A stretch of 64,000 nucleotides of DNA from Quatrionicoccus australiensis. Lineage in GTDB: Bacteria; Pseudomonadota; Gammaproteobacteria; Burkholderiales; Rhodocyclaceae. The notes beneath the pieces were generated by a model. The model searched no databases and had not been told where the DNA came from. It saw nothing but the letters and a program-made list of their open reading frames with translations. Where the stretch lies: contig NZ_CP075188.1 in assembly GCF_020510525.1 (NCBI RefSeq), positions 1,488,001 to 1,552,000 on the forward strand. The letters run 5' to 3'. Positions 5,932 through 33,207 of the stretch are shown here, in pieces. Within the stretch, counting starts at the first letter, position 1; each line of letters begins with the position of its first letter. The position numbers and the translations under genes were made by a program.

Positions 5932-5997
5932 CTTGGCATGATCCGGAATGTAATCGCGCGATTATGTTGCCGCGACGTGACAGGCGTGTGACACCGG

Positions 5998-6453: not shown

Positions 6454-6509
6454 CGGCTGGCTGCATCTTGACTGATTGCCTCGGGACATCAGCCTAGCCG
6501 GCCGATATT

Positions 6510-8045: not shown

Positions 8046-8114
8046 GGTTTTCCCCCGGTGCATGAAAGTTCGTTATAGAACATCGGCATGCACCGGGGCA
8101 AGCCCGGCGCCGGT

Positions 8115-9749: not shown

Positions 9750-10895
9750 TTACTGGGCGATGCTCCAGTCGCCGCTCTTGACTTCGAGCATGCGGAAAGC
9801 GGACAGATCGAGGCCCATGTGGTCGGTGGCCGACATGTTCACGATGCCGCCGGTGCCGACGTAGCCCTTGGTGGCTTCGAGGGCGTCGCGGACCTTGGTC
9901 TTGTCGGTGGAATTGGCCCGTTTGATCGCGTCGACCGCCAGCATCAGGCCGTCGTAGGCATGGCCGCCGAAGGTCGAGACATCGGTCTTCCAGCGCGCTT
10001 CAAAAGCCTTGCTGTAGCCGACGGCGACCGGTTTCTGCGGGTCCTTGTCGTTGAGCTTGTTGGCGACGAGCAGGGCGGCAGCCGGCAGGCGGATGCCTTC
10101 TGCGGCCGGGCCGGCGAGCTTGATGAACTCTTCGGAAGCGACACCGTGCGCGTGGTAGAGCGGCAGATTGACGCTCAACTGCTTGAAGTTCTTGGTGGCG
10201 ATCGCCGGCCCCTGGCCGAGACCGAAGATGAACACCGCCTGCACGCCCGGCGTGCCCTTGATCTTGGTCAGCTGCGGGCTCATGTCGGTATCCTTCGGCC
10301 CGTAGGTTTCGTTGGCGACCAGGGTGATGCCGTACTTGGCGGCAACGCCTTCGCTTTCCTTCTTGCCGGAACCGCCGAAACCGCTGGTTTCAGAGAGCAG
10401 GGCGACCTTGCTGATGCCGCGCTTCTTCATGTCCTCGAAGACCTTTTCGGCCGCCATGCGGTCGGTGTGCGGCGTCTTGAACAGCCATTTCTTGACCGGC
10501 TCGACGATGACCACGGCGCCGGCCAGCGAGATAAACGGAATGCCCGCCTTCTCGACCAGCGGTGCGGCCGACATGGTGGCGCCGGTGGTGGTGCCGCCGA
10601 CCAGCACGTCGACCTTGTCGTCCTCGATCAGGCGCTTGGTGAAGCCGTTTGCCTTGCCGGCATCGCTGCCGTCGTCGTAATGGACCAGTTCCAGCGGTCG
10701 ACCGAGTACGCCGCCCTTTTTATTGATGTCCTCGACGTACATCTGCAGGGTTTTCAGTTCCGGATCGCCGAGGAAGGCGGCCGGACCGGTGACGGAAAGG
10801 ACCGAACCGATCTTGATCGGGTCGGCAGCGAAGGCACTGAATGCGCCAAGAATCAGGACGGCGCCGGCAGCAAGCTTTTTGATGCTTTTATTCAT
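9750..10895 (-). CDS. Liv-type ABC transporter substrate-binding protein
   Basis: Periplasmic type I binding protein of 381 aa (branched-chain amino-acid/aryl-acid class). The start at 10895 is fixed by GGAGGAGACAAACCC directly before the ATG and by the signal peptide MNKSIKKLAAGAVLILGAF ending near AFA-AD. The mature start PIKIGSVLSVTGPAAFLGDP is typical of LivK-like proteins. It is embedded in the paa operon, while matching LivH, LivM, LivG and LivF proteins are in the divergent operon from 21060. The transporter was therefore probably recruited for phenylacetate or a related aromatic acid rather than for leucine. That substrate is inferred from context only. Confidence 0.9.
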   Translation of the reverse strand: MNKSIKKLAAGAVLILGAFSAFAADPIKIGSVLSVTGPAAFLGDPELKTLQMYVEDINKKGGVLGRPLELVHYDDGSDAGKANGFTKRLIEDDKVDVLVGGTTTGATMSAAPLVEKAGIPFISLAGAVVIVEPVKKWLFKTPHTDRMAAEKVFEDMKKRGISKVALLSETSGFGGSGKKESEGVAAKYGITLVANETYGPKDTDMSPQLTKIKGTPGVQAVFIFGLGQGPAIATKNFKQLSVNLPLYHAHGVASEEFIKLAGPAAEGIRLPAAALLVANKLNDKDPQKPVAVGYSKAFEARWKTDVSTFGGHAYDGLMLAVDAIKRANSTDKTKVRDALEATKGYVGTGGIVNMSATDHMGLDLSAFRMLEVKSGDWSIAQ

Positions 10896-12240: not shown

Positions 12241-13566
12241 TCAGTCGCGTTTCGGGCGTTCGTCGAGCACGCGCTTGGCCTTGCCGACCTGGGTGCGCGG
12301 GATGGCGTCGAATTCCATGACGGTGATCTTGGTCGACACGCCGATGATGGTCTTGATGCGGTGCTGCAGTTCCTTGCTGATCTGCTGGATCTCGCTCTGC
12401 GGCAGCTTGCCGGACAGCTCGCGCTGGACTTCGCAGCGGACTTCGAGGTTGTCCATGTGACCGTCGCGGGTGACGACGACCTGGTAGTTGCCGGCCAGGC
12501 GCTTGTCGCGCAGGATCTGTTCCTCGATCTGGGTCGGGAAGACGTTCACGCCGCGGATGATCAGCATGTCGTCGGAGCGCCCGGTGATCTTGCCGATGCG
12601 GCGGAAGGAGCGGGCGGTCGGCGGCAGCAGGCGGGTCAGGTCGCGGGTACGGTAGCGGATGACCGGGAAGGCTTCCTTGGTCAGCGAGGTGAACACCAGT
12701 TCGCCTTCCGAACCGTCGGGCAGGACTTCGCCGGTTTCCGGGTCGATGATCTCGGGGTAGAAGTGGTCTTCCCAGATCACCGGGCCGTCCTTGGTTTCGA
12801 TGCATTCGCAGGCGACGCCGGGGCCCATGACTTCGGTCAGGCCGTAGATGTCGATCGCGTCGATGCCGAGCTTACGTTCGATTTCGCTGCGCATGCCTTC
12901 GCCCCAGGGTTCGGCACCGAAGATGCCGACCTTGAGCGAGATTTCGTCCGGCTTGATGCCGAGGCGCTCGAATTCTTCGGCGATCACCAGCGAGTAGGAC
13001 GGCGTCACCATGATGATCTCGGGCTTGAAGTCCATGATCTGCTGCACCTGCTTCTCGGTCTGGCCACCCGACATCGGCACGGCGCAGCAGCCGAGGCGCT
13101 CGACGCCGTAGTGGGCGCCGAGGCCGCCGGTGAACATGCCGTAACCGTAGGCGACATGCACCATGTCACCGGCGCGGCCACCGGCCGCACGGATCGAGCG
13201 GGCGACGACGTCGGCCCAGTTGTTGAGGTCGTTCTGCGTGTAGCCGACCACGACCGACTTGCCGGTCGTGCCGGAAGACGCATGCAGGCGGGCAATCTTG
13301 TTGCGCGGCACGGCGAACAGGCCGAACGGATAGTTGTCGCGCAGGTCGAGCTTGGTCATGAAGGGGAACTTGCCGAGGTCGCTCAGCGTCTTCAGGTCGT
13401 CCGGATGCACGCCCTTTTCCAGGCATTTGCGGCGATACGGCTCGACATTGTCGTAGCTGTGGCGCACCGACCACTTCAGGCGTTCGAGTTGCAGGGCCGA
13501 AATTTCGTCGCGGCTGGCGGTCTCGATAGCGTCGAGTTCGCCGGGCAGGGGTTTCTTGGCGGTCAT
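12241..13566 (-). CDS. paaK: Phenylacetate-CoA ligase
   Basis: Cytoplasmic AMP-forming ligase of 441 aa that activates phenylacetate to phenylacetyl-CoA, the entry step of the pathway. The ATP-binding P-loop is [21 protein letters not shown] and the C-terminal [17 protein letters not shown] region are characteristic of PaaK. The start at 13566 has AGAGGAGACAAAC before the ATG. It sits between paaI and paaJ. The enzyme can also feed anaerobic phenylacetate oxidation, but the neighbours here are all of the aerobic CoA-epoxide route. Confidence 0.95.
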
Positions 13567-15829: not shown

Positions 15830-16624
15830 TCATTCCCCGGTGAACTTCGGTACCCGTTTTTCCATGAAGGCGGCGACGCCTTCGGCGTAGTCCGGGCTCC
15901 AGCCCAGCTCGCGCATGTAGCTGCCTTCCAGCGACAGTTGCTGCTCCAGCGTGTGGCCGGGGGCGGCGTGCATCGCCTGGCGGGTGCGCACCAGCGCCTT
16001 GGTCGGCGCCGTGGAAAGTTGCCTGGCCAGGGCGTCGACCGCTGCGGCGAACTCGGCATCTTCGACGCATTGCCAGATCAGGCCCCAGTCGGCGGCCTTT
16101 TCGGCGGGCAGCTTGTCGGCGAGCAGGGCGAGGCCCATGGCGCGCGCCATGCCGACGCGCTGCGGCAGGAACCAGGTGCCGCCGGTGTCCGGAATCAGGC
16201 CGATCTTGGAGAAGGCTTGCAGGAAGGAGGCGGACTTGGTGGCGAGCACCAGGTCGCAGGCCAGCGCGACCGAAGCACCGGCGCCGGCGGCGATGCCGTT
16301 GACCGCCGCGATGGTCGGCACGCGCAGGTTCTGCAGGCGCAGGATCAGCGGCTTGTAATTGGCTTCGACGACATTGCCGATGTCCGGCATCTTGCCGTTG
16401 ATGCTGGCCATGTCCGGATCGGCCAGGTCCTGGCCGGCACAGAAGGCGCGGCCGGCACCGGTCAACACCAGAACGCGGATGTTTTTGTTGGTCTGGACGT
16501 GGTCGAGCGCGTCGCGCAGCTCGGCATGCATGGCGCCGGTGAAGCTGTTCAGCTTGTCCGGGCGGTTCAGGGTCAGGCGGGCGACGCCGGCCTCGACGTC
16601 AAACTTGATGTTTTCGTAGGTCAT
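15830..16624 (-). CDS. paaG: 1,2-epoxyphenylacetyl-CoA isomerase PaaG
   Basis: Crotonase-fold isomerase of 264 aa that turns ring-1,2-epoxyphenylacetyl-CoA into the oxepin-CoA and also moves double bonds during beta-oxidation. PaaG hallmarks are AFCAGQDL and the LIPDTGGTWFLPQRVG segment carrying the acidic residue. The start has GGAG six bases before the ATG. Its presence implies that a ring epoxide is made in the cell, although no paaABCE gene is in the window. Confidence 0.94.
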   Translation of the reverse strand: MTYENIKFDVEAGVARLTLNRPDKLNSFTGAMHAELRDALDHVQTNKNIRVLVLTGAGRAFCAGQDLADPDMASINGKMPDIGNVVEANYKPLILRLQNLRVPTIAAVNGIAAGAGASVALACDLVLATKSASFLQAFSKIGLIPDTGGTWFLPQRVGMARAMGLALLADKLPAEKAADWGLIWQCVEDAEFAAAVDALARQLSTAPTKALVRTRQAMHAAPGHTLEQQLSLEGSYMRELGWSPDYAEGVAAFMEKRVPKFTGE

Positions 16625-16754: not shown

Positions 16755-18419
16755 TCAAACGTGGTAGCGGCGCTGGACGACTACGAATCGGTTGGCGACG
16801 AAAGCGGCATCGGCATAGGACGCATTGGCGGCCGGATTGCCGCCGGTGCCGTGGTAGTCGGAATAGGCCGCCGACTGGTTCACGAAGACGCCGCCGGTCA
16901 GGTTGATCGACAGGGCGACCTTGGAACGCATGGTGGCGGCGGTCATCGCGTCGAGTACGTCGGCGCTGGTCGAGTAGATGCCGGCGGTCAGGGCGCCGTG
17001 GGTGGAAATGATGCGTTCGGACAGCGCAATCGCGGCGGCGGTGTCGGCGACCTTGACGATGAAGCTGATCGGGCCGAAGCGCTCTTCCATGTAGGCCTTC
17101 TCGTCGGCGGCATCGCAGGCGAGCAGGACCGGGGTGCGCACTTCCGACTTCGGGAATTCCGGGTTGTCGAGCCTGGTCGAGGCGAGGATGACCTTGCCCA
17201 GCGCGCCGCTGTCGGCTTCATTGATGCGCTTCAGCGTATCGGCCGACTGCACGGCGCCGAGCACGGCGAGGGCAACTTCCGGCTTGGACAGGAAGCCGGA
17301 GACGGCTTTTGCCAGGTCGGCACAGACCTCGTCGTAGCTCTTGTGGCCGTCTTCCGTTTCGATGCCGCCGGCCGGCACGAAGATCGCCTGCGAGGTGGTG
17401 CACATCTGGCCGGAGTAGAGCGACAGCGTGAAGGCCAGGTTGCGCAGCATCGGCTTGTAGGCGTCGGTCGAGTCGATGACGATGTTGTTAACGCCGGCCA
17501 GCTCGGCATAGACGCGGGCCTGGCGGCAGTTGTCGATCAGCCATTGGCCGAAGACGTTGCTGCCGGTGAAGTCGATCGACTTGACGGCCGGATCGGTCAC
17601 CAGCTTTTGCGTCGTGGCGCGGTCGGCAACGCACAGCGTGACCAGGTTGGGATCGATGCCGTTCTCGGCCAGCACGGCGCGGATGGTGCGTACGGTGATC
17701 GCGGCCGGCAGGATGGCGTTGCTGTGCGGCTTGACGATCACGGCATTGCCGGTGGCGAGCGTGGCAAACAGGCCGGGGTAGGTGTTCCAGGTCGGGAAGG
17801 TGCCGCAGCCGACCACAACGCCGACGCCATGGCCGACCAGTTCGAAGTGCTTCTTCATGACCAGCGGCGGGTTCTTGCCCTGCGGCTTTTCCCAGGTCGT
17901 TTCAGTCGGCACGAAGCTTTGTTCGCGGTAGGCGTAGGCCACGGCTTCGAGGCCGCGGTCCTGGGCGTGCGGGGCGCCGGCCTGGAAGGCCATCATCCAG
18001 CCCTGGCCGGTGGTCATCATCACGGCATGGGCGAGTTCAAAGCTCTGCTGGTTAAGGCGCGACAAAATTTCCAGGCAGATGCCGGTGCGGCCGTCGGCGC
18101 CGGCTTTCTGCCAGCCGAACATGGCCTGCTGGCCGGCAGCGATCAGCGCAGCGTGGTCGCAGACGGGATATTGCACATTCAAATCGATGCCGTAGGGCGA
18201 CTGTTCGCCACCGGTCCAGCCGCTCTGGCCGGGCTGGCCGAGTTCGAAGTTCTGACCGAGGTGGGCCTCGAAAGCTTTCTTGCCATCTTCGGCCGCCGTT
18301 TCGCCATAAGTCTTCGGGCTCGGCATCTCGTTATAGGCCGACCAGTAGCCACGGGTGTGAATGGCGTTGAGGGCACCGTCGAGCGTGGCGCGGTGTTTTT
18401 CCAGTAGTTGGGCGGACAT
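16755..18419 (-). CDS. paaN: Phenylacetate degradation aldehyde dehydrogenase PaaN
   Basis: Aldehyde-dehydrogenase-fold protein of 554 aa, PaaN type. The NAD-binding region contains TWNTYPGLFATLATGNAVIVKP, broken here as TWNTYPGLF and ATGNAVIVKPH. The catalytic Cys is in QMCTTSQAIF. The bifunctional PaaZ protein has an extra MaoC hydratase domain; this protein lacks it, so oxepin-CoA ring hydrolysis would need another enzyme. First gene of the minus operon; AAGGAGATATGG precedes the ATG at 18419, and the shared divergent control region lies just upstream. Confidence 0.92.
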   Translation of the reverse strand: MSAQLLEKHRATLDGALNAIHTRGYWSAYNEMPSPKTYGETAAEDGKKAFEAHLGQNFELGQPGQSGWTGGEQSPYGIDLNVQYPVCDHAALIAAGQQAMFGWQKAGADGRTGICLEILSRLNQQSFELAHAVMMTTGQGWMMAFQAGAPHAQDRGLEAVAYAYREQSFVPTETTWEKPQGKNPPLVMKKHFELVGHGVGVVVGCGTFPTWNTYPGLFATLATGNAVIVKPHSNAILPAAITVRTIRAVLAENGIDPNLVTLCVADRATTQKLVTDPAVKSIDFTGSNVFGQWLIDNCRQARVYAELAGVNNIVIDSTDAYKPMLRNLAFTLSLYSGQMCTTSQAIFVPAGGIETEDGHKSYDEVCADLAKAVSGFLSKPEVALAVLGAVQSADTLKRINEADSGALGKVILASTRLDNPEFPKSEVRTPVLLACDAADEKAYMEERFGPISFIVKVADTAAAIALSERIISTHGALTAGIYSTSADVLDAMTAATMRSKVALSINLTGGVFVNQSAAYSDYHGTGGNPAANASYADAAFVANRFVVVQRRYHV

Positions 18420-18791: not shown

Positions 18792-19820
18792 ATGGCTAGC
18801 AACAAGGAACGTTTTGCCGACAAGATGGAATTCCCGCCGGAAATCCAGCAGCCCAACATCTATCCGCTGTCCTGGAACAGCAAGACCAAGAAGTTGCAGG
18901 AAGTCTGGGAAGCCGCCCGTCGCGAAGACTGGGATCCGGAAAAACTGCCCTGGGATACGCTGGATGTAGACAGCTACACCTGGGAAGAGCGCGAATCCAT
19001 CGCCTACTGGTGGAGCCTGCTCTCCGTGTTCGATGCTTCCGCACCGCCGGTTTTTGCCGAAGCGCTGATCAAGACCTATGAAGTGCATGAGGAAGATCCG
19101 GTTCGCAAGTGCTTCTTCTCTGTCACCCGCGACGAGCAGAACCACGAAATCATGTGCGGCCTGGCTATCACCAAGCTGCTCGGCCATCCGGACCCGATCA
19201 CCTACGTGCCGAAGACCGACCTCGGCCGCCGCCTGCAGAAGAACGTGCAGTGGCTGTACTTCAACGGCGCCCGCTACTGGACCGGCTACAAGCAAGCCGT
19301 GCCCAAGTACGACCTGGCGGTATTGTTCAGCTCCTTCCTGATGGGCGAAATCGCTGCCGCCACCATCTTCAAGCAGATGTTCGACAACTCCCGCGAAGCC
19401 GTCTTCAAGGAAGGTTTCAAGAACATCGGCCGCGACGAAGGCCGCCACATGGCGATCTGCATGGCCGTCATGGAACGCGACTACCCGGGCCTCAAGGAAG
19501 AAACCAAGGCTGTCGTCACCAAGCAGATCCGCGCCGGTTACCTGTTCCTGTCGGCCGTGCTGTTCGAGCCGCCGATGGAATTCTGGGACCTGCCGGAAGA
19601 CTTCATCGCCAACCAGCGTGAAGGCGAAGAAGTTGCCCGCGGCGCCGGTTTCGGCATCCCGAGCTACGAAGCCAAGCTGGAAAACTGGCGCAACGCGATG
19701 ATCAACCTGAAGGGCGTGCTCGACAAATACAACATCCCCTTCCCGGCGATTCCGGAAGTCGGCATCACCGGTCAGGAAGTCAGCGACGTCGATCTGGACG
19801 ACATCATTCCGGTCTTCTGA
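18792..19820 (+). CDS. Ferritin-like di-iron carboxylate oxygenase, substrate unknown
   Basis: Soluble helical protein of 342 aa with the ligand pattern of di-iron oxygenases. Two ExxH motifs (E115-H118 in DEQNH and E216-H219 in DEGRH) alternate with single glutamates at about 90 (FAEAL) and 186 (MGEIAA). That is the Glu / ExxH / Glu / ExxH layout of ribonucleotide reductase R2, ferritin-like oxidases and bacterial multicomponent monooxygenases. It does not resemble PaaA or BoxB as I know them. A strong AAGGAGGAGAT precedes the ATG. The reductase gene downstream could supply electrons. Placement in a divergent, apparently co-regulated operon next to paa suggests an aromatic or CoA-thioester substrate; this is an inference. 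Confidence 0.8.
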   Translation: MASNKERFADKMEFPPEIQQPNIYPLSWNSKTKKLQEVWEAARREDWDPEKLPWDTLDVDSYTWEERESIAYWWSLLSVFDASAPPVFAEALIKTYEVHEEDPVRKCFFSVTRDEQNHEIMCGLAITKLLGHPDPITYVPKTDLGRRLQKNVQWLYFNGARYWTGYKQAVPKYDLAVLFSSFLMGEIAAATIFKQMFDNSREAVFKEGFKNIGRDEGRHMAICMAVMERDYPGLKEETKAVVTKQIRAGYLFLSAVLFEPPMEFWDLPEDFIANQREGEEVARGAGFGIPSYEAKLENWRNAMINLKGVLDKYNIPFPAIPEVGITGQEVSDVDLDDIIPVF

Positions 19821-19832
19821 TCGGTCGACCGT
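19821..19832. repeat. Dispersed GGTCGACC palindrome, copy 1
   Basis: CGGTCGACCG directly after the oxygenase stop codon, followed by an A-run. Short member of the family best seen at 20984. Confidence 0.5.
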
Positions 19833-19850
19833 GTAAAAAAAGCAAAAACG

Positions 19851-19876
19851 GCCGGTACCCCGCAAGGGGCGCCGGC
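19851..19876 (+). terminator. Intercistronic GC hairpin
   Basis: GCCGG-ta-CCCC, loop GCAA, then GGGG-c-GCCGGC: a strong stem-loop with a stable GNRA-type tetraloop. It is followed by TTTGCC, not a long U-run. It probably acts as an attenuator or 3'-end stabiliser that keeps oxygenase mRNA more abundant than the downstream genes. Confidence 0.55.
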
Positions 19877-19916
19877 TTTGCCGCAATAGAGAAAACAAAA
19901 GCGAGGAAGAGACAAA

Positions 19917-20966
19917 ATGGCGAAGATCATCATGCAGCCGTCTGGTAAATCGGTCGATTGCGCCTACGGCGATACCGTCCTGATGGCATTGGAAAAATCC
20001 GGCTACGCGCTGCCCAACAACTGCCGCGCCGGTGCCTGTGGCGAATGCAAGGTCAAGGTCACGTCCGGCCAGTTCGACCAGGGCATGGTGCTCGACATGG
20101 CGCTGTCGCAGGACGAACGCAAGCAGGGCTATGGCCTGATGTGTATGGCCAAGCCGATTTCCGAGGAAATCAGCATCGAGTGGGGCACCGAGGACGCCAA
20201 GCCGAAACTCTTCCCGCCGCGCGAAGACGCGCTCTTTGTGGTTACTGACAAGAAACAGATCGCCGCCCGCGTCGTCGAGCTGCGCTTGCGTCCGGTCGGC
20301 CAGCCGATCCGCTACTGGCCCGGCCAGTACGTGACGCTCGGCAATCCGCGCGCCGACATTCCGGCCCGCGCCTATTCCATTTCCAACGCACCGCGCCCGG
20401 ATGGCGAACTGGTGCTGCAAATTGCCCGCGCCGAAGGCGGCGTGACCAGCAACTGGGTGCATGACCAGCTTGCGGTCGGCGAGGGCGTCAAGGTTTCCGG
20501 CGCCTACGGCACCTTCATCGGCGATCCGTCGGTCGATACGCCGGTGCTCTGCATCGCCGCCGGCACCGGCCTGGCGCCCGTGCTGGCGCTGGCCGAAGCG
20601 GCACTGCGTCGCGGCTTCAAGAAGCCGGTGACCATGCTCTTCTCGGCGCGCACCAAGGCTGACGTCTATAGCCAGGGCATGATGGCCTGGTGGCGCACCA
20701 AGCACCGCAACTTCGACTACAAGGTGACGCTGACCCGCGAAGAAGCCGAGGGTTTCCTCAAGGGCCGCATCGATGTCGTGCTGCCGCAGATGTTCAAGGA
20801 TCTCTCCAAGCACACCATCTTCATTGCCGGCAGCCCGGAGTTTGTCGATGCCGGCGTTGCCGCCGTCAAAGCGCTCGGCGCGCAGGACGAGTTGGTGCAT
20901 AGCGAGGGCTTCTTCGCGCAGCAGCAGCCGGTCACGGCGGATGCCGACCATCTGCTGGCCCACTGA
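19917..20966 (+). CDS. 2Fe-2S/FAD/NAD(P)H oxidoreductase (oxygenase reductase component)
   Basis: Reductase of 349 aa. The N-terminal plant-type 2Fe-2S ferredoxin has cysteines at 36, 41, 44 and 76. A ferredoxin-reductase FAD domain (RAYSISNAP) and an NAD-binding domain (CIAAGTGLAPVLALAEAAL) follow. This order matches phenol/toluene monooxygenase and methane monooxygenase reductases. GAGGAAGAGACAAA precedes the ATG. It should pass electrons from NAD(P)H to the di-iron protein encoded just upstream. PaaE has the opposite order (flavin domain first, ferredoxin last), so this is not PaaE. Confidence 0.9.
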   Translation: MAKIIMQPSGKSVDCAYGDTVLMALEKSGYALPNNCRAGACGECKVKVTSGQFDQGMVLDMALSQDERKQGYGLMCMAKPISEEISIEWGTEDAKPKLFPPREDALFVVTDKKQIAARVVELRLRPVGQPIRYWPGQYVTLGNPRADIPARAYSISNAPRPDGELVLQIARAEGGVTSNWVHDQLAVGEGVKVSGAYGTFIGDPSVDTPVLCIAAGTGLAPVLALAEAALRRGFKKPVTMLFSARTKADVYSQGMMAWWRTKHRNFDYKVTLTREEAEGFLKGRIDVVLPQMFKDLSKHTIFIAGSPEFVDAGVAAVKALGAQDELVHSEGFFAQQQPVTADADHLLAH

Positions 20967-21024: not shown

Positions 21025-21060
21025 ATGAACAACCATCGCCCGCGGGCAGGGAGGCTGTGA
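21025..21060 (+). CDS. Possible 11-residue leader peptide upstream of livH
   Basis: ATG at 21025 preceded by ACGGAGACGAC opens MNNHRPRAGRL, whose TGA overlaps the livH ATG at 21060. The arrangement would couple livH translation to the short frame. It has no run of a regulatory amino acid, so attenuation is not evident, and it may be chance. Confidence 0.35.
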   Translation: MNNHRPRAGRL

Positions 21061-21935
21061 TGCTTGCCCAGTTCCTGCAATTCCTCTTTTCCGGGATCAC
21101 GGTCGGCGCCACCTACGCGCTGGCTGCGCTCGGCTTCACGCTGATCTACAACGCCAGCAACGTGATCAACTTCGCCCAAGGCGAATTCATCATGCTGGGC
21201 GGCATGCTTGCCGTGTTCTTCACGCAGGCCGGGCTGCCGCTGCCGGTCGCGCTGCTGCTCGCCATCCTGATCCCGGCCATCGTCGGCGTGCTGATCGAAA
21301 AGCTCGCCATCGAGCCGGTCAAGGGCGCCGAACCGGTCACCCTGATCATCATCACCATCGGTGCCTCGCTGGTCATTCGCGGCCTGACCGCGGTGATCTT
21401 CGGCAAGGGCACGCACAGCCTGCCGGCCTTCTCGGGCGATGCACCGATCGAGATTCTCGGTGCGACGCTGCTGCCGCAGAGCCTGTGGGTGCTCGGCGTG
21501 ACCGCCGTGGTGGTTGTGGCGCTGTGGTATTTCTTCAACCGCACGCTGCACGGCAAGGCCATGCTGGCGACCTCGTTCAACCGCCTGGCGGCTGAGCTGG
21601 TCGGCATCAACACCTCCTGGGTGCTGTTCATGAGCTTCGCGATGTCGGCGGCGCTCGGTGCGCTGGGCGGCATTCTGCTCACCCCGATCACGCTGACCTC
21701 CTACGACGTCGGGATCATGCTCGGCCTCAAGGGCTTCGTCGCCGCCGTGCTGGGCGGCCTGGGCAACGGCCTCGGTGCCGTGGTTGGCGGCCTGCTGGTC
21801 GGCATCCTCGAAGCGATGGGCGCCGGCTACATTTCGTCCGCCTACAAGGACGCGATGCCTTTCGTGCTCATCCTGTTCATTCTCTTCTTCATGCCGCGCG
21901 GCCTGTTCGGCGGCAAATCGACGGATCGGGTCTGA
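21060..21935 (+). CDS. livH: Liv-type ABC permease LivH
   Basis: Inner-membrane permease of 291 aa with about eight hydrophobic segments. GATYALAALGFTLIYNASNVINFAQGEF is the LivH signature near the N-terminus (seen as ALAALGFTLIYNASNVINFA). GGGAGG lies seven bases before the ATG; a GTG three bases earlier is the alternative start. It forms the translocation pore with LivM. Genes livH, livM, livG and livF follow with gaps of 1, 2 and 13 bases. Confidence 0.93.
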   Translation: MLAQFLQFLFSGITVGATYALAALGFTLIYNASNVINFAQGEFIMLGGMLAVFFTQAGLPLPVALLLAILIPAIVGVLIEKLAIEPVKGAEPVTLIIITIGASLVIRGLTAVIFGKGTHSLPAFSGDAPIEILGATLLPQSLWVLGVTAVVVVALWYFFNRTLHGKAMLATSFNRLAAELVGINTSWVLFMSFAMSAALGALGGILLTPITLTSYDVGIMLGLKGFVAAVLGGLGNGLGAVVGGLLVGILEAMGAGYISSAYKDAMPFVLILFILFFMPRGLFGGKSTDRV

Positions 21936-21936
21936 C

Positions 21937-22869
21937 ATGAAGAAATCTGTCTACAACGGCCTTTACCTGGTCATCGCCATCCTGCTGGTGCTGCCTTTCG
22001 TGCTGCCCAACAGCTTCTACCTCGATCTGGCCATCCGCATGGCGATCAATGCCGTGATCGTGCTCGGCCTCAACCTCCTGATCGGCTTTGCCGGCCAGAT
22101 CAGTCTTGGCCACGCCGGTTTCCTCGGTATCGGCGCCTATGCCTCGGCCGTGTTGCCGACGCATTTCGGCTGGCATCCGCTGCTTGCCATGGGCGCCGGC
22201 GCCGCCACCACCGGCATTCTTGCCGCCCTGGTGGCGCGTCCGATCTTCAAGCTCAAGGGCAACTACCTGGCGATGGCGACGCTCGGGCTGGGCATCATCA
22301 TCAACATCGCCCTGCGCAACGAAGCGCAATGGACGGGCGGGCCGGACGGCATGCCGGTGCCGGGCATGGGCCTGTTCGGCTTCGAGCTGGCCAGCGACAA
22401 GCACTGGTACTGGGTCGTCGCGCTGCTGCTCTCGGTGTCGGTGTGGGCTTCGCTCAACCTGATCGATTCGCCCTTCGGCCGGGCGCTGCGTGCGCTGCAC
22501 GGCTCCGAAGTCGCGGCGCAGGTGGTCGGCGTCGATATCGTGCGCTACAAGGTCGCGATCTTCGTGCTCTCCGCCGTTTTCGCCAGCCTGATGGGCAGCG
22601 TCACGGCGCATTACGTCGGTTTCGTCAGCCCCAACTTCGCCGACTTCTTCCATTCCATCGAACTGGTCACCATGGTGGTGATCGGCGGCATGGCCTCGGT
22701 GTACGGCTCGCTGGTCGGCGCCGTGCTGCTGACCGCGCTGCCGCAGGCGCTGGCCACCTTCGAAGGCTGGGAAACCGTGGTCTTCGGCGCCATCCTGATG
22801 CTCTCGATGATCTTCCTGCCCAAGGGCCTGGTGCCGACGCTGGCAGCCAAATTCGGCAAGGGGAACTGA
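21937..22869 (+). CDS. livM: Liv-type ABC permease LivM
   Basis: Second inner-membrane permease, 310 aa. LivM features: LNLLIGFAGQISLGHAGFLG and GNYLAMATLGLG near the N-terminal half, and RALHGSEVAAQVVGVDI, the cytoplasmic coupling-helix region that contacts the ATPases. Starts one base after the livH stop. Confidence 0.93.
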   Translation: MKKSVYNGLYLVIAILLVLPFVLPNSFYLDLAIRMAINAVIVLGLNLLIGFAGQISLGHAGFLGIGAYASAVLPTHFGWHPLLAMGAGAATTGILAALVARPIFKLKGNYLAMATLGLGIIINIALRNEAQWTGGPDGMPVPGMGLFGFELASDKHWYWVVALLLSVSVWASLNLIDSPFGRALRALHGSEVAAQVVGVDIVRYKVAIFVLSAVFASLMGSVTAHYVGFVSPNFADFFHSIELVTMVVIGGMASVYGSLVGAVLLTALPQALATFEGWETVVFGAILMLSMIFLPKGLVPTLAAKFGKGN

Positions 22870-22871
22870 AC

Positions 22872-23633
22872 ATGTCGCTACTCGAAGTCAAGGACCTGTC
22901 CATCCATTTTGGTGGCGTCAAGGCGGTGCAGAACGTCTCGTTCAACATCGACGCCGGCATCGTCTATTCCGTGATCGGCCCGAACGGCGCCGGCAAGACG
23001 ACGCTGTTCAACCTGATCACCGGCGTCTACAAGCCGACTACGGGCGAAATCCGTCTCGACGGCGAAGCCATCCACGGCAAGTCGCCCAACGAACTGGCCC
23101 GGCGCGGCGTGGCGCGCACCTTCCAGAACCTGCAGATCTGCATGAACATGACGGCCATCGAAAACGTCATGGTCGGCGCCCACCTGCGTCTGGACCGCAA
23201 CCTGGTCAAGGCGGCGCTGCGCTTCCCCGGCCTGAAAAGGCGCGACCGCGAAATGCGTGCCGAAGCAGCGCAACTGATGGACTTCGTCGGCCTCGGCCAG
23301 TACGTCGAAACCCGCGCCGACGCGATGTCCTACGGTGCCCTCAAACGCCTGGAAATCGCCCGCGCCCTGGCCATGCAGCCGCGCCTGATCTTCCTCGACG
23401 AACCCGCCGCCGGCCTGAATCCCAAGGAAACCATCGAGATCGACCACCTGGTGCGCAAGATCGCCGACTCCGGCGTGACCGTGGTGCTCGTCGAACACGA
23501 CATGAAGATGGTCATGAACCTGTCGGACCGCATCTTGGTGCTCGACTACGGCAAGAAGCTGACCGAGGGCACGGGCGAGGAAATCAGAAAAAATCCCGAT
23601 GTGATTGCGGCTTATCTGGGCGCTCACGCGTAA
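22872..23633 (+). CDS. livG: Liv-type ABC ATPase LivG
   Basis: ATP-binding subunit of 253 aa. Walker A GPNGAGKTT, signature region MSYGALKRLEIARAL (the usual LSGG is MSYG here, common in LivG), Walker B LIFLDEPAAGLNP and the H-loop VLVEHDMKMVM are all present. It should pair with the hemerythrin-LivF protein to form the ATPase heterodimer. Confidence 0.94.
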   Translation: MSLLEVKDLSIHFGGVKAVQNVSFNIDAGIVYSVIGPNGAGKTTLFNLITGVYKPTTGEIRLDGEAIHGKSPNELARRGVARTFQNLQICMNMTAIENVMVGAHLRLDRNLVKAALRFPGLKRRDREMRAEAAQLMDFVGLGQYVETRADAMSYGALKRLEIARALAMQPRLIFLDEPAAGLNPKETIEIDHLVRKIADSGVTVVLVEHDMKMVMNLSDRILVLDYGKKLTEGTGEEIRKNPDVIAAYLGAHA

Positions 23634-23646
23634 CAAGGGGAAGAAC

Positions 23647-24963
23647 ATGGAAGCACTACGCATCATCACCGAAGAGCACCAGAACCTCTGGCGCATCGCC
23701 ACCACGCTGGACATGGTGGCTGACGAGATCGACGCCGGCAGCAAGGTCGAGACGCCGTTCTTCAGCTCGGTCTTCGACTACATCGAGCAGTTCATGGACC
23801 GCGCCCACCACGCCAAGGAAGACGCCTTCCTCTTCCCGGCGCTGCGCCTGCGCTCGCCGGCAGCGGCGGCGATCCTCGACCGCCTGCAGGTCGAGCACGT
23901 CAACGGCCCGGAAGTGCTGCGCGATTTGCGCACCAAACTGGCGTCGACCGCTGGCGGCGGCGAAAGCAATGCCGCCTTCACGGCGGCGCTACGCAACTAC
24001 ACGTCGGCGATCAAGAACCACATCCGCAGCGAGGAAAAGGACGCCATGCCGCTCGCCCGCGAGGTGCTGACCGGCGACGACTGGGCCGAAATCGACCGTG
24101 CCTTTCTCGACAACGACGACCCGCTGTTCGGCGGCAAGGCGCGCGCCGAATTCCGCGAACTGTTCCACCGCATCGCCAGCCTGGCGCCGGAATCGATCGG
24201 CCTCGGCGCGCACAGCACCGGCGAGCTGCAACCCGGCGCCGCCAGCGGGCCGGGCGATGTGCTGCTCTCGGTCAAGGGCATGGAAAGCTGCTACGGCCGG
24301 ATCAAGGCCCTCAAAGGCATCGACCTTGAAGTGCGCAAGGGCGAACTGGTCGCGCTGGTCGGCGCCAACGGTGCCGGCAAGACCACCTTCCTGCGCACGC
24401 TCTCCGGCGTGCAGGCGATGAGCGCCGGCCAGATCATGTTCGACGGCGAAGACATCAGCAAACTGCGCGCTGACCTGCGCATGCGCCGCGGCATCTGCCA
24501 AAGCCCGGAAGGCCGCCAGGTCTTCGGCCCGCTCAGCATCGAGGACAACCTGCGCCTGGGCGCCTACACCCAGCCGAAAGGGCAGGTCGAAGGCGATCTC
24601 GAAAAGATTTTTGCGATGTTCCCGATCCTCAAGGAAAAGCGCAACCTGCCGGCCGGCACGCTCTCCGGCGGCCAGCAGCAGATGCTCGCCATCGGCCGCG
24701 CCCTGATGGGCCGCCCGAAAATGCTCCTGCTCGACGAACCGTCGATGGGCCTCGCGCCGCTGCTCGTCGAAGAAGTCTTCAACGTCGTCAAGACGCTGAA
24801 AGCCCAGGGCATGACCATCTTCCTCGTCGAACAGAACGCCTTCGCCGCCCTCGCCATCGCCGACCGCGGCTACGTCCTCGAAACCGGCCACATCACCCTG
24901 ACCGGCACCGGCCAGGAACTGATCAGCAACGAACAGGTCCGGGCGGCTTATCTCGGGATGTAG
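23647..24963 (+). CDS. livF: Hemerythrin domain fused to LivF ABC ATPase
   Basis: Protein of 438 aa with two parts in one unbroken frame. Residues 1-185 are a hemerythrin-like four-helix domain with a full di-iron ligand set: His11, H54xxxE58, His84 and H125xxxE129. Residues 204-438 are a complete LivF ATPase: Walker A GANGAGKTT (239-247), signature LSGGQQQML, Walker B MLLLDEPSMGLAP and H-loop IFLVEQNAFAAL. AAGGGGAAGAAC before the ATG at 23647 makes translation as a single fusion likely. LivF proteins are normally about 235 aa without this domain. A hemerythrin could bind O2 or sense redox state and gate ATP hydrolysis; that function is inferred. Confidence 0.92.
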   Translation: MEALRIITEEHQNLWRIATTLDMVADEIDAGSKVETPFFSSVFDYIEQFMDRAHHAKEDAFLFPALRLRSPAAAAILDRLQVEHVNGPEVLRDLRTKLASTAGGGESNAAFTAALRNYTSAIKNHIRSEEKDAMPLAREVLTGDDWAEIDRAFLDNDDPLFGGKARAEFRELFHRIASLAPESIGLGAHSTGELQPGAASGPGDVLLSVKGMESCYGRIKALKGIDLEVRKGELVALVGANGAGKTTFLRTLSGVQAMSAGQIMFDGEDISKLRADLRMRRGICQSPEGRQVFGPLSIEDNLRLGAYTQPKGQVEGDLEKIFAMFPILKEKRNLPAGTLSGGQQQMLAIGRALMGRPKMLLLDEPSMGLAPLLVEEVFNVVKTLKAQGMTIFLVEQNAFAALAIADRGYVLETGHITLTGTGQELISNEQVRAAYLGM

Positions 24964-25232: not shown

Positions 25233-28200
25233 ATGTCGAACCCTTTCTTCGATCATCCGATCCTGAATTCCCCGTATGAGCGCCCTGCACGTCACTGGGA
25301 GTTGGACGAATCGGGGCAGCCAACGCAGCAAGTTCTGGATGCGCGTCGCCGTGCCGAGTTCATCACACCGATACCCAAGCCGAAGAAGCAAAAGAAGATG
25401 CCAAGGCAGGAAGGTTTCATCTTCGACGAAGGCGTGGGGCTATCCACCAAAGCGCAGCAGTACGATCCAACCTCGATCATTAACGAGGTGCGTAACCACG
25501 TAGACGCGTGGCGCGCGCTCCCGAATCCGAACCAGTGGCAGGTTACGCCTGAGACGGCGCGCCTGCTCCTGCACTGGCGGCACCACGGTTTCAACGGTGT
25601 TCGGCCCTTTTTCTGTCAGGTCGAAGCGGCTGAAACAGCCATCTGGCTGACCGAGGTTGCACCCAGCACAAAGCACGGCAAACGCCTGCTCGAACACCTC
25701 GCAGCCGCCAACAAGGACGCCAACCCGGAGTTGATGCGGCTGGCCCTCAAGCTAGCCACTGGGGCGGGCAAGACAACCGTGATGGCCATGCTGATTGCCT
25801 GGCAGACCATCAACGCGGTGCGTCGTCCGAGCAGCAAACAGTTCACACGTGGCTTTCTTATCTGTGCGCCGGGCCTCACCATCAAGGACCGGCTACGCGT
25901 ACTGCAACCACATGACCCCGACAGCTACTACAAAGAACGGGAACTGGTGCCGGCCGACATGCTCGATGACATGGGCCGCGCCAAGATCGTCATCACCAAC
26001 TATCACGCCTTCAAGCTGCGCGAGCGCATCGATATTTCCAAGGGTGGGCGGCAACTGCTCAAGGGGCGCACTGGCGACGAAATCGTCACCACGGAAACCG
26101 AAGGCCAGATGCTCCAGCGTGTCATGCCCGACCTGATGGGCATGAAGAACATCCTGGCCATCAACGATGAAGCCCACCACTGCTACCGTGAAAAGCCCCT
26201 GGGCGCAGGCATTGGTGACGATGAAGAACTGAAAGGCGACGAGAAGAAAGAGGCCGATAAAAACAACGAAGCCGCCCGGTTGTGGATCTCCGGGCTCGAA
26301 GCCGTCAATCGCAAGCTGGGTCTATCCCGCGTCTTCGATCTATCCGCCACGCCGTTTTTCCTACGCGGTTCAGGCTACGCCGAAGGCACGCTATTCCCCT
26401 GGACGATGAGCGACTTCTCGCTAATGGACGCCATCGAATGCGGCATCGTCAAACTGCCGCGCGTGCCGGTCGCGGAAAACATCCCCGGTGAAGAAATGCC
26501 GGTCTTCCGCAACCTCTGGGAGAACATCCGCAAGGACATGCCCAAAAAAGGGCGCGGCTCCAATCAGGAACTCGACCCGCTCAAGCTGCCGACCCGGCTG
26601 CAAACCGCGCTGCAAGCGCTTTACGGGCATTACGAGAAGACCTTCAAGCTCTGGCAGGATGCCGGAATCTCCGTGCCGCCGTGTTTCATCGTGGTCTGCC
26701 AGAACACCGCCATTTCCAAGCTCGTCTATGACTTCATCTCGGGCTTTCAACGCAAGAACGACGACGGCAGCAGCACGCTGGAAAACGGCCGTTTGCCCCT
26801 GTTCCGCAACTTCGACGACACCACCGGCAACCCCCTACCACGCCCCAATACGCTGCTGATCGACAGCGAGCAACTCGAAGCTGGTGACGCGCTGGACGAC
26901 AAGTTTCATGACATGGCGGCCGATGAAATCGAGCGCTTTCGTCGCGAAATCATCGAGCGCACCGGCGATGTCCGCGCCGGTGACAACATCACTGATCAGG
27001 CCCTGCTGCGCGAAGTCATGAACACCGTCGGCAAGGCCGGGCAACTCGGCGGTGCGATCCGCTGCGTCGTCTCGGTGTCGATGCTCACCGAAGGCTGGGA
27101 CGCGAATACCGTGACCCACGTGCTGGGCATTCGCGCTTTCGGCACGCAACTGCTGTGCGAACAGGTCATCGGCCGCGCCCTGCGTCGCCAGTCCTACGAA
27201 CTCAACGACGAGGGCCAGTTCAACGTCGAATACGCCGACGTTTTCGGCATCCCCTTCGACTTCACCGCCAAGCCGGTCATCAGCCCGCCGCAACCGCCAC
27301 GCGAAACGGTGCAGGTCAAAGCCATGCGCCCCGAGCGCGACGCCCTCGAAATCACCTTCCCGCGGGTCGAGGGCTACCGCGTCGAATTGCCCGAAGAACG
27401 CCTGCTGGCCAACTTCAACGAGGAATCCACGCTTGTCCTGACGCCCGATCTCGTCGGGCCGTCACAAACCCAGAACTCGGGGATCATCGGTCAGTCGGCC
27501 GACATGACCCTGCAGCATCTGGGCGATGTGCGCTCCTCCACCTTGCTCTTCCACCTCACCCAGCGCCTGCTCTACACCAAGTGGCGCGACCCCGGCGAGG
27601 AACCCAAGCTGCACCTGTTCGGCCAGCTCAAGCGCATTACCAAGGAATGGCTCGACAATCATCTGGAATGCAAGGGCGGAACCTACCCCGCGCTGCTCAT
27701 GTATCAGGAACTGGCCGACATGGCCTGCAACCGGATCACCGCCGCCATCACCCGCCACTTTCTCGGCGAACGGCCCATCAAGGCGCTGCTCGATCCTTAC
27801 AACCCCAGCGGCTCGACCCGCCACGTGCGGTTCAACACCTCCAAGGCCGACCGCTGGCAAACCAGTTCCCAGCGCTGCCACATCAACTGGGTTGTGCTCG
27901 ATAGCGACTGGGAGGGCGAATTCTGCCGCGTCGCTGAAATGCACCCCAAGGTCAGTGCCTACGTCAAGAACCATGGCCTCGGCTTTGAAGTGCCCTATCG
28001 CTACGGCTCGGAAACGCGCAAATACCTGCCCGACTTCATCGTGCTGGTCGACGACGGCCACGGGCCGGATGACCTGTTGCGCCTGGTCGTCGAAATCAAA
28101 GGCTATCGACGCGAGGACGCCAAGGAAAAGAAATCGACCATGGACACCTACTGGGTGCCCGGCGTCAATCACCTTGGCTCCTACGGGCGCTGGGCCTTTG

Positions 28201-28310
28201 CCGAGTTCACCGACGTCTTCCAGATGCAGGACGATTTCGCCAAGAAGGTGGAGGCCGAATTCGGACGCATGATAGCTGTGGCCGTTCAGAAGGGAGTGGA
28301 TCATGAATAA
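25233..28310 (+). CDS. BPTD_3080-type restriction endonuclease (type III Res-like helicase-nuclease)
   Basis: Restriction subunit of 1025 aa: an SF2 helicase with a C-terminal nuclease. Walker A LATGAGKTT (about 174-182), DEAHH box (about 311), SATPFF (motif III) and the VIGRALRR arginine finger (motif VI) are intact. The C-terminal PD-(D/E)xK nuclease shows YLPDFIVLV then LVVEIKGYR (about 930-957). It should translocate on DNA and cut unmethylated sites together with the methyltransferase encoded at 29154. No strong Shine-Dalgarno sequence precedes the ATG. Its stop overlaps the next gene by eight bases. Confidence 0.88.
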   Translation: MSNPFFDHPILNSPYERPARHWELDESGQPTQQVLDARRRAEFITPIPKPKKQKKMPRQEGFIFDEGVGLSTKAQQYDPTSIINEVRNHVDAWRALPNPNQWQVTPETARLLLHWRHHGFNGVRPFFCQVEAAETAIWLTEVAPSTKHGKRLLEHLAAANKDANPELMRLALKLATGAGKTTVMAMLIAWQTINAVRRPSSKQFTRGFLICAPGLTIKDRLRVLQPHDPDSYYKERELVPADMLDDMGRAKIVITNYHAFKLRERIDISKGGRQLLKGRTGDEIVTTETEGQMLQRVMPDLMGMKNILAINDEAHHCYREKPLGAGIGDDEELKGDEKKEADKNNEAARLWISGLEAVNRKLGLSRVFDLSATPFFLRGSGYAEGTLFPWTMSDFSLMDAIECGIVKLPRVPVAENIPGEEMPVFRNLWENIRKDMPKKGRGSNQELDPLKLPTRLQTALQALYGHYEKTFKLWQDAGISVPPCFIVVCQNTAISKLVYDFISGFQRKNDDGSSTLENGRLPLFRNFDDTTGNPLPRPNTLLIDSEQLEAGDALDDKFHDMAADEIERFRREIIERTGDVRAGDNITDQALLREVMNTVGKAGQLGGAIRCVVSVSMLTEGWDANTVTHVLGIRAFGTQLLCEQVIGRALRRQSYELNDEGQFNVEYADVFGIPFDFTAKPVISPPQPPRETVQVKAMRPERDALEITFPRVEGYRVELPEERLLANFNEESTLVLTPDLVGPSQTQNSGIIGQSADMTLQHLGDVRSSTLLFHLTQRLLYTKWRDPGEEPKLHLFGQLKRITKEWLDNHLECKGGTYPALLMYQELADMACNRITAAITRHFLGERPIKALLDPYNPSGSTRHVRFNTSKADRWQTSSQRCHINWVVLDSDWEGEFCRVAEMHPKVSAYVKNHGLGFEVPYRYGSETRKYLPDFIVLVDDGHGPDDLLRLVVEIKGYRREDAKEKKSTMDTYWVPGVNHLGSYGRWAFAEFTDVFQMQDDFAKKVEAEFGRMIAVAVQKGVDHE

Positions 28311-29151
28311 CATCAAGCTATTCGAGTCGAAGCAAATTCGCTCCGCTTGGGATGATGCCGCCCAACGCTGGGTTTTTGCCATTGTCGATGTGATCGCGGT
28401 GCTCACCGAAAGCCCCAATCCGCCGGTCTATTGGCGCGTGCTCAAGAAGCGCCTGCTGGCCGAAGGAAATGAAACCGTTACAAGCTGTAACGCTTTGAAG
28501 CTGACCGCAGCCGACGGCAAACAGCGCCTTACCGATGTGGCGGATACTGAGCAACTCCTGCGCCTAATCCAGTCCATTCCTTCCCCCAAGGCCGAACCCT
28601 TCAAACGTTGGCTGGCCAAGGTCGGCTACGAACGCCTTGAAGAAATTGAAAACCCGGAACTCGCCGCCGCCCGCATGCGCGAGATTTACAAGGCCAAGGG
28701 CTACAGCGACGCCTGGATCGAAAAGCGGGTGCGCGGCATCGCCATTCGCGACGAACTGACCAACGAATGGCAGAAACGCGGCGTCAAGGAACAACGTGAA
28801 TACGCCATCCTCACCGCCGAAATCAGCCGCGCCACCTTCGGCATGACGCCGAGCGAGTACAAGACCTTCAAGCAACTCGACAAGCCCGCCGACAACCTGC
28901 GCGACCACATGACCGACCTGGAACTGATTTTTTCCATGCTCGGCGAAGCCTCCACCACCGAGATTGCCCGCCAGCGCGAGGCCCAGGGCTACGACGAAAA
29001 CCGTGCAGCCGCCATCGCCGGGGGCAGCGTGGCCGGCAAGGCCCGGCAAGACCTGGAACAAAAATCCGGCCGCCGCGTCACCAGTCCGGAAAACTACAAG
29101 GCACTGCCCGAGGCCGTTGCCCGCAAAAAGTTGAACAGGAAAGAAGATTGA
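28303..29151 (+). CDS. Bro-N (phage antirepressor-like) domain protein within the restriction operon
   Basis: Protein of 282 aa whose N-terminus (FESKQIRSAWDDAAQRW, VYWRVLKKRL) is a Bro-N DNA-binding fold known from phage antirepressors and baculovirus BRO proteins. The rest is helical and charged, ending in a basic tail. It overlaps the restriction gene by eight bases and is followed at once by the methyltransferase, so all three are co-translated. A role in target recognition or control of the restriction system is inferred; no experimental function is known to me. Confidence 0.75.
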   Translation: MNNIKLFESKQIRSAWDDAAQRWVFAIVDVIAVLTESPNPPVYWRVLKKRLLAEGNETVTSCNALKLTAADGKQRLTDVADTEQLLRLIQSIPSPKAEPFKRWLAKVGYERLEEIENPELAAARMREIYKAKGYSDAWIEKRVRGIAIRDELTNEWQKRGVKEQREYAILTAEISRATFGMTPSEYKTFKQLDKPADNLRDHMTDLELIFSMLGEASTTEIARQREAQGYDENRAAAIAGGSVAGKARQDLEQKSGRRVTSPENYKALPEAVARKKLNRKED

Positions 29152-29153
29152 GC

Positions 29154-31937: not shown

Positions 31938-31971
31938 TGCTTAACTGGATTAAAGAGTACGGAGAAAGCAA

Positions 31972-33207
31972 ATGGCGTTGATCGAAGGATTTCGGGTCAA
32001 GAATTACCGGGCGCTCCGGGATGTGACGCTGGGCAAGTTGTCGACTGGACAGCAGCAGGTTGAACCGCTTACGCCCTTCACAGTGGTGATCGGCAAGAAT
32101 GGCGCCGGCAAGAGTACTTTGTTCGACGCCTTTGGTTTCGTCGCCGATTGTCTATCGACGGACTTGGAAACTGCCTGCGACGCCAAACAACGTGGCGGGT
32201 TCGAGCGGATGCGTTCACTGGGAACAGATGAGCCGATTTGTTTTGAGATTTACTACCGCGAATCCAAGAGCGAGCGGCCGATTACCTACGAGCTGCACAT
32301 CAACCTGGATGAGTCGGGCCGCCCCTTTGTGCAGTATGAGTTTCTCGGGCAACGCCGAAAAGGACAGCGCTTTGGTCGTCCCTACCCCTTTTTGCGCTTG
32401 ACGCACGGTTCGGGTACGGCATGGGCGGGTGACACCGCTATTGAGGGCGAGGGCGACGAGGAGCCGAACACCAAAATGGACGTTACCCTCACTGATCTTC
32501 GGCAACTGGGTATCGCCACGTTAGGAACGCTCAAGGAGCATCCTCGCATCAAACGGTTCAGGGATTTTTTGAAAGGCTGGTATCTGTCTTACTTCCACCC
32601 TGACTCAGCACGCTCGATTCCCTCTGCTGGTGCACAGCGTCACCTGAATATGCATGGCGACAACATCGGTAACGTAGTGCAGTACATGGAAAGGGAGCAC
32701 AAGGAGCGTTTCCAGTCGATTCTTGATCGGATTGCAGCAAAAATTCCCGGCATCCAAAGCATCAAGACATTGGTGACGGCAGACAAACGGGTGCTACTCC
32801 AGTTCAATGATGGAGCGTTCGCCGATCCATTTTACGCAGGACAGATGTCAGATGGGACGCTGAAAATTTTTGCCTATCTGTTGCTGATGGAAGACCCCGA
32901 GCCGCCACCGTTTATTTGTATCGAAGAACCAGAAAATGGTCTTTATCACAGGTTGCTGGATGCGCTGGCCACCGAATTACGAAATCATGCGACCGGCAAA
33001 AAAAACGCGCCGCAGATTTTCGTGACGACCCATCAGCCTTATTTCGTGGACGCGCTGACGCCTCAGGAAGTGTGGATATTGAAAAAAGGGGCAGACGGGT
33101 ACTCGACGGTACGACGCGTATCCGAACTGGCGTTGGTAAACAACTTGGTCGATGAGGGCTTGCCGCTTGGTAGCCTCTGGTATAGCGACTATCTGGACGC
33201 GGACTGA
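31972..33207 (+). CDS. AAA/ABC-type ATPase (OLD/RecF-like, AAA_21)
   Basis: ATPase of 411 aa starting MALIEGFRVKNYRAL, the RecF/OLD-type opening. Walker A IGKNGAGKST (about 40-49), signature-like QMSDGTLKIFAYLLL, Walker B FICIEEPENGL (about 313) and switch His VTTHQPYFVDAL are conserved. No nuclease domain is fused, unlike OLD proteins; the following gene supplies a Toprim-like protein. It lies 34 bases after the methyltransferase. Confidence 0.87.
   Translation: MALIEGFRVKNYRALRDVTLGKLSTGQQQVEPLTPFTVVIGKNGAGKSTLFDAFGFVADCLSTDLETACDAKQRGGFERMRSLGTDEPICFEIYYRESKSERPITYELHINLDESGRPFVQYEFLGQRRKGQRFGRPYPFLRLTHGSGTAWAGDTAIEGEGDEEPNTKMDVTLTDLRQLGIATLGTLKEHPRIKRFRDFLKGWYLSYFHPDSARSIPSAGAQRHLNMHGDNIGNVVQYMEREHKERFQSILDRIAAKIPGIQSIKTLVTADKRVLLQFNDGAFADPFYAGQMSDGTLKIFAYLLLMEDPEPPPFICIEEPENGLYHRLLDALATELRNHATGKKNAPQIFVTTHQPYFVDALTPQEVWILKKGADGYSTVRRVSELALVNNLVDEGLPLGSLWYSDYLDAD

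Follow-up and report, generated by a model that had tools for sequence, protein, structure and literature searches.

A hemerythrin-like domain fused to the LivF-type ATPase of a likely phenylacetate importer in Quatrionicoccus australiensis and related bacteria

A gene joining a hemerythrin-like domain to a transporter ATPase was studied in a 64,000-nucleotide stretch of the genome of Quatrionicoccus australiensis (contig NZ_CP075188.1, positions 1,488,001 to 1,552,000), which we refer to as the window. The encoded protein, here called Hr-LivF, consists from N- to C-terminus of an HHE hemerythrin-like (Hr) domain, a linker and a LivF-type ATP-binding cassette (ABC) ATPase, and its gene is the last of a livH-livM-livG operon. 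Sequence comparisons indicate that the fusion is old and selected. We regard the chances as evenly balanced that the Hr domain acts in cis as an O2/redox-responsive regulator of a phenylacetate importer; the signal and the effect on the ATPase are predictions from sequence.

Structure of the fused gene

The gene occupies positions 23647-24963 of the forward strand as a single uninterrupted open reading frame (ORF) of 438 codons, from an ATG at 23647 to a TAG at 24961-24963. The ATG lies 13 nt downstream of the LivG stop and AAGGGGAAG directly 5' of it is a good ribosome-binding site, in agreement with the first-pass annotation of this DNA, which had described one frame with one such site joining a hemerythrin domain to a LivF ATPase. 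Both domains of that description were recovered by profiles. The Pfam profile Hemerythrin (PF01814) matches amino acids (aa) 4-137 with 67.5 bits against a cut-off of 25.3, which places the domain in the HHE family, and ABC_tran (PF00005) matches aa 222-366. The top NCBIfam model is LivF NF008626 (aa 205-437), whose score of 271.8 bits falls short of the cut-off of 441 for an E. coli-type LivF equivalog. No Pfam family other than Hemerythrin, ABC_tran and the related AAA_21 matched Hr-LivF, which sets it apart from the P1B-5 hemerythrin ATPases, whose chain includes a P-type ATPase with transmembrane helices. The LivF part has a Walker A motif (GANGAGKT), the signature LSGGQ and a Walker B motif (MLLLDEP), its top Foldseek match is 1ji0 (53% identity) and, with LivH, LivM and LivG encoded next to it, Hr-LivF belongs with the HAAT (Liv-type) importer ATPases.

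Helices at aa 2-29, 36-69, 71-102 and 108-140 form a four-helix bundle in the domain model (mean predicted local distance difference test, pLDDT, 88.4), and the HHE module comprises this bundle (aa 1-140) and a conserved C-terminal extension. In the Hr-LivF model, residues 181-202 have pLDDT below 50. A free LivF might in theory be translated from an in-frame GTG at 24259 (V205). The parts of the gene are as follows.

23647..24216, forward strand: HHE hemerythrin-like module, aa 1-190 (PF01814 at aa 4-137, iron ligands, domain model)
24217..24258, forward strand: variable linker, aa 191-204 (low pLDDT, low identity)
24259..24963, forward strand: LivF-type ABC ATPase (NF008626 at aa 205-437, PF00005, ABC motifs, Foldseek)

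Conservation of the iron ligands and kind of hemerythrin

The Hr domain carries the complete ligand set H11, H54xxxE58, H84 and H125xxxE129, corresponding to the motif H-HxxxE-H-HxxxE, and all six residues had been numbered exactly right in the first-pass annotation. Their conservation was assessed in a set of 212 distinct fused proteins, made up of 135 of 139 from the database and 77 from loci, each with a match starting at aa 15 or before and reaching aa 420 or after. H11, H54, H84, H125 and E129 are present in 212/212 and E58 in 211/212, the remaining protein having Asp; Y45, E130 and W146 are likewise found in all 212. Mean column identity in these proteins is 0.70 over aa 1-137, 0.56 in the linker (aa 190-205) and 0.90 in LivF. 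The six ligands are also invariant across 75 fused and unfused hemerythrin modules, of which 20 are fused, 20 are encoded behind livF, 29 are encoded elsewhere, five are fused to a universal stress protein (USP) domain and one is fused to another ABC ATPase.

The fused proteins do not have the HxxxH of helix three and the HxxxxD of helix four that O2 carriers possess, His88 occurring in 1/212 and Asp130 in 0/212, and on its ligand set the canonical O2-carrier hemerythrin (H-HxxxE-HxxxH-HxxxxD) was rejected. PDB relatives of the Hr domain found by profile are NMB1532 (2p0n), YtfE and FBXL5; no canonical O2-carrier hemerythrin is among the PDB matches listed, which by itself excludes nothing. 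For the O2-sensing module of the first-pass annotation, these ligands and relatives do not support O2 binding in the classical sense. According to passages of PMC12022348, H-HxxxE-H-HxxxE is the motif of the iron-sensing, redox-active BTS domains, which are compared there with FBXL5 and whose centres are FBXL5-like and quickly autoxidised. Because the ligands are of this FBXL5/BTS kind and not the O2-carrier set, reversible O2 carriage by the Hr domain appears unlikely. We infer that the domain binds iron.

Distribution and evolutionary history of the fusion

Both Pfam domains were present in every one of the best 120 rows of a whole-protein search (7999 scored) and of a search with residues 1-200 (546 matches). 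Scanning contigs with patterns taken from the domain as it occurs in the window identified 74 loci, in genera that include Dechloromonas, Azonexus, Zoogloea, Rhodoferax, Polaromonas, Glaciimonas and Brachymonas, and in 74/74 both domains lie in a single frame. One (L114) of the 30 loci in which the ORF end was examined stops early within LivF. LivG is a neighbor in 72 loci, LivM in 71 and LivH in 70, though the contig stops close by in some cases; at least one of PaaN, PaaG and PaaK is found near the fusion in 47/74, while paa, AurF-like and reductase genes are all missing from the examined flank in 21/74. The same domain order, for which the first-pass annotation had proposed a search of other genomes, is therefore real: a frameshift or chimera is rejected by the 74 loci and 212 distinct proteins, and homologs are not always encoded as separate genes.

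The LivF clade of the window (E <= 1e-84) occurs in 23 of 199 genomes of the family, fused in 17 and unfused in six. A class sample of 369 added three genomes with fused copies (G400, G282 and G406) and, from other families, six in which a close LivF is unfused (G212, G259, G332, G285, G409 and G266); G397 and G509, at 52-55% identity, were not counted among the latter. With same-clade LivF unfused in these two sets of six genomes, the proposal that this LivF is always fused was rejected.

In the hemerythrin tree (75 rows) a branch supported at 100/97 separates the 20 fused rows from all the others as one clade. The LivF tree (40 rows) requires five changes of the fused label, at least three of them forced by starred branches, and its Dechloromonas/Zoogloea-type group (support 100/99) includes the unfused locus L157. 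There, a LivF gene at 7707-8504 on the reverse strand, 80% identical to that of the window, has a stretch of ~30 residues in place of the hemerythrin domain and is accompanied by AurF-like, reductase and (by eye) PaaX-like genes. Since this unfused copy nests within a supported fused group, the hemerythrin domain can apparently be lost.

Unfused hemerythrins and other genes beside livF

Association of hemerythrins with livF also recurs without fusion. In 14 of 40 sampled loci, an unfused hemerythrin gene follows a same-strand livF-type gene at a distance of <=300 nt, compared with an expected ~0.6% if the window's genome is typical; this expectation derives from 20 LivF-like matches (E <= 1e-20) in that genome, including LivG and other ABC ATPases. 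High-ranked unfused relatives were taken down the ranking and not at random (G130, G065, G163 and G104 were left out), and the rows are related, so that a binomial chance comparison overstates the case. Six loci stand outside this count (L042, L043, L044, L046, L050 and L051); three of them have the gene behind livF and would give 17/46. The livF-paired hemerythrins belong to several hemerythrin clades (the best tree needs five changes, of which starred branches force two or more), and their LivF partners are far from the fused lineage (36-47% identity). One such pair is found in the window's genome (L052), adjoining genes for 4-hydroxy-2-oxovalerate aldolase, acetaldehyde dehydrogenase and a BphD-like hydrolase, the last below cut-off. 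Hemerythrin is tied to two of the six best LivF-like genes in this genome.

Four unfused relatives that share this LivF clade and come from other families (L151, L152, L153 and L154; Pfam, 4/4 tested) have a CBS-pair gene following livF, and a fifth was recognized by eye in L155. CBS pairs are usually regulatory and regulate importers such as OpuA. Their presence in the LivF slot of four unfused relatives favors regulation over scavenging.

Additional genes were noted in these surroundings. L153 has a rubrerythrin-like gene (Pfam), as do L151 and L154 by eye, and 2-oxoacid oxidoreductase-like or PadB-like genes were seen by eye in L151, L153 and L154, the PadB-like gene of L151 being unconfirmed by NCBIfam. 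Some sister hemerythrins are in box clusters (BoxB) and others beside genes for USP and CcoG, a cytochrome oxidase accessory protein. The same hemerythrin module is fused to a USP domain in L053 (Pfam) and in L054, L056, L057 and L058 (by eye), or is encoded beside USP and CcoG-like genes in L178, L183, L185, L189 and L197; for the adjacent genes, profiles identified USP in L178 and CcoG/FixG in L178 and L185, the others being by eye. At L055, positions 5938-7236 of the forward strand, a fusion of reverse order has an N-terminal ABC ATPase (PF00005) followed by hemerythrin (PF01814); this ATPase shares just 29% identity with LivG of the window.

Operon context and likely cargo

Genes surrounding Hr-LivF in the window are listed below.

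9750..10895, reverse strand: Liv-type substrate-binding protein, likely cognate, among paa genes (Peripla_BP_6)
12241..13566, reverse strand: PaaK phenylacetate-CoA ligase (TIGR02155 over cut-off)
15830..16624, reverse strand: PaaG isomerase (TIGR02280 over cut-off)
16755..18419, reverse strand: PaaN-type aldehyde dehydrogenase (TIGR02288, 896 bits)
18792..19820, forward strand: AurF-like di-iron protein upstream of the liv genes (PF11583 below cut-off; in 36/74 named loci)
19917..20966, forward strand: Fer2/FAD/NAD reductase, BenC/PaaE-like (NCBIfam matches all below cut-off; in 40/74 named loci)
21057..21935, forward strand: LivH permease (PF02653)
21937..22869, forward strand: LivM permease (PF02653)
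22872..23633, forward strand: LivG, the partner ATPase (top match NF008449, below its cut-off; BCA_ABC_TP_C)

PaaH, PaaI, 3-oxoadipyl-CoA thiolase and two enoyl-CoA hydratases are also encoded on the opposite strand. The neighboring paa genes and di-iron-oxygenase-like gene pointed out in the first-pass annotation are therefore present. Downstream of the operon, positions 25233-33207 hold genes for a large ResIII-type protein (PF04851) followed by an apparent DNA methyltransferase and an AAA ATPase, a set judged by eye to be type III restriction-like.

Fused copies elsewhere lie beside PaaK, PaaG and PaaN, in one locus beside PaaA (L039) and in another beside a PaaX match just below cut-off (L101). 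The fused copy of L037 adjoins phenylglyoxylate dehydrogenase subunits PadG and PadH and a PaaK-like ligase, with a neighbor that matches BoxB over cut-off; L035, L036, L048 and the unfused L161 were judged by eye to be of the same pad type. Binding proteins encoded next to Hr-LivF in L035-L037 and L048 share 78-80% identity with the one at 9750-10895. Because of the paa and pad neighbors and this shared binding protein, phenylacetate or a close aryl acetate is the likely cargo of the importer, in aerobic and anaerobic settings alike.

Oxygenases of the pathway

As oxygenase candidates we counted PF05138 matches over cut-off (PaaA/PaaC, treated as pathway markers in passages of PMC13186573) and the AurF-like protein. 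A candidate is present in 17/20 fused genomes versus 1/12 unfused genomes (Fisher p 3e-5), but only three independent pairs lie on starred branches; p is 0.001 (14/20 versus 1/12) if genomes with weak PF05138 matches (G181, G282 and G406, best 83-89 bits) are counted as lacking it. A contrast of fused aerobes with unfused anaerobes was dropped as a test, since COX1 was found in 32/32 genomes.

The window's genome has no PaaA/PaaC (PF05138, 0 matches) though the lower phenylacetate pathway is present. The genes for the AurF-like protein and the BenC/PaaE-like reductase (18792-20966) are divergent from the paa genes. Among 13 genomes with the Dechloromonas/Zoogloea-type transporter, eight have the AurF-like protein only, three have both, two have PaaA/PaaC only (over cut-off) and none has neither. 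The AurF-like protein and its reductase are a candidate for an undescribed phenylacetyl-CoA oxygenase. The best 120 of its 918 homologs are 76-96% identical and, where named, are called hypothetical, rubrerythrin, ferritin-like, AurF or diiron oxygenase. No PDB relative of this protein was found, and our literature search found no paper combining AurF and phenylacetyl-CoA.

Proposed role of the hemerythrin domain and alternatives

Hr-LivF would be an ATP-hydrolysing subunit that pairs with LivG on LivH/LivM and imports phenylacetate or a close aryl acetate. Its di-iron site may shift state with O2 or redox conditions, with fast autoxidation as in relatives sharing the ligand set, and the linker could pass this change on, increasing or decreasing ATPase activity or assembly, so that uptake would be matched to the oxic or anoxic state of a facultative bacterium. 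Regulation in cis is suggested by a ligand motif that is near-invariant in a fast-evolving domain, by the single clade of fused hemerythrins, by the recurrence of unfused ones behind livF and by the CBS genes that fill the LivF slot elsewhere. A broader generalization, which we hold only tentatively and consider somewhat doubtful, is a hemerythrin switch for aromatic-acid ABC importers in which HHE modules act on LivF-type ATPases and O2 or redox state (or nitric oxide (NO) or iron) sets uptake in facultative bacteria; in several transporter lineages the module would act in trans, encoded by a separate gene that follows livF, and in the phenylacetate importer it would act in cis through a single ancient fusion.

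Several observations weigh against cis regulation by O2 or redox state. The interface between the two parts of Hr-LivF is not resolved in the model (linker pLDDT below 50, predicted template modeling score 0.48). Fused copies with intact ligands are also found in pad operons of anaerobic phenylacetate metabolism, the fused genomes G055, G088 and G132 have neither oxygenase candidate, and with COX1 throughout there are no strict anaerobes to contrast. Kinship may explain the difference in oxygenase content between fused and unfused genomes, and the O2 argument also leans on the AurF-like protein being, as we infer, the oxygenase of the phenylacetate pathway. In the six unfused family genomes no CBS gene was seen by eye behind livF, which means that replacement by another regulator is not general. 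The first-pass suggestion that import is gated by O2 because the pathway needs it is partly supported: the oxygenase contrast and the sisters with BoxB or CcoG agree with it, while the pad operons, the few independent pairs and L157 do not.

L157, which seems to be a natural loss of the hemerythrin domain with the transporter kept, and the unfused same-clade LivF in 6/23 family genomes would also suit a domain that receives no signal and either aids assembly or stability or is a dispensable passenger. We consider this very unlikely, since the ligands are kept near-absolutely in 212 proteins at 0.70 mean identity. Instead of regulating transport, the domain could scavenge or buffer O2, peroxide or NO locally, positioned at the membrane where toxic aromatic acids come in and close to enzymes that use O2 or are sensitive to it. 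A scavenger has no need to be on LivF, or so often behind livF (14/40), one copy per ATPase would be poor stoichiometry, and the CBS genes in the equivalent slot point to regulation, all of which makes this explanation unlikely. Sensing of iron instead of O2, by an iron-free form that unfolds or blocks the ATPase so that substrate feeding di-iron and iron-sulfur enzymes enters only if iron suffices, appears quite improbable to us; the placement of unfused sisters by CcoG-type genes suggests O2 over iron.

Comparison with known systems and significance

Among known transport ATPases that bear a hemerythrin, those of the P1B-5 class come closest: a hemerythrin-like domain is likewise covalently attached and its role (O2/redox or iron) is also unsettled, as presented in PMC9388753; these are P-type metal transporters with the domain at the C-terminus and ligands H-HxxxE-HxE-HxxxxD, unlike H-HxxxE-H-HxxxE in Hr-LivF. 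The same paper describes DcrH, Bhr-DGC and Bhr-HD-GYP, in which hemerythrin is also fused to an output domain and, in the latter two, the di-iron redox state regulates a cyclic di-GMP (c-di-GMP) enzyme output. These proteins differ in their canonical H-HxxxE-HxxxH-HxxxxD ligands and in outputs of chemotaxis or c-di-GMP instead of transport. FBXL5/BTS HHE domains resemble Hr-LivF in the kind of motif (given for BTS) and in placing an iron- or redox-responsive domain on another activity, but belong to eukaryotic E3 ligases (passages of PMC12022348).

Already known is a separate COG3945 HHE gene in Rhodocyclales benzoate clusters, which also hold a benzoate-type ABC transporter; passages of PMC6449761 treat its role as unclear, with protection or an O2 store as possibilities, and mention no LivF fusion. 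Passages of a survey covering the architectures of O2-binding hemerythrins list fusions to chemotaxis and cyclase domains, and no word in its main text starts with "ABC" (PMC4919030). No paper on a hemerythrin-ABC ATPase fusion was found among the literature matches listed, subscription journals being mostly outside the search. OpuA-like CBS importers likewise have a regulatory module on or beside the importer ATPase and differ from Hr-LivF in domain and signal.

If the proposed regulation is correct, carbon uptake would be linked directly and post-translationally to oxic or anoxic state by a sensor that is part of the ATPase of an ABC importer, and the HHE proteins of aromatic-acid clusters would gain a testable role. 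The fused, separate and lost versions found in nature represent a ready comparison set.
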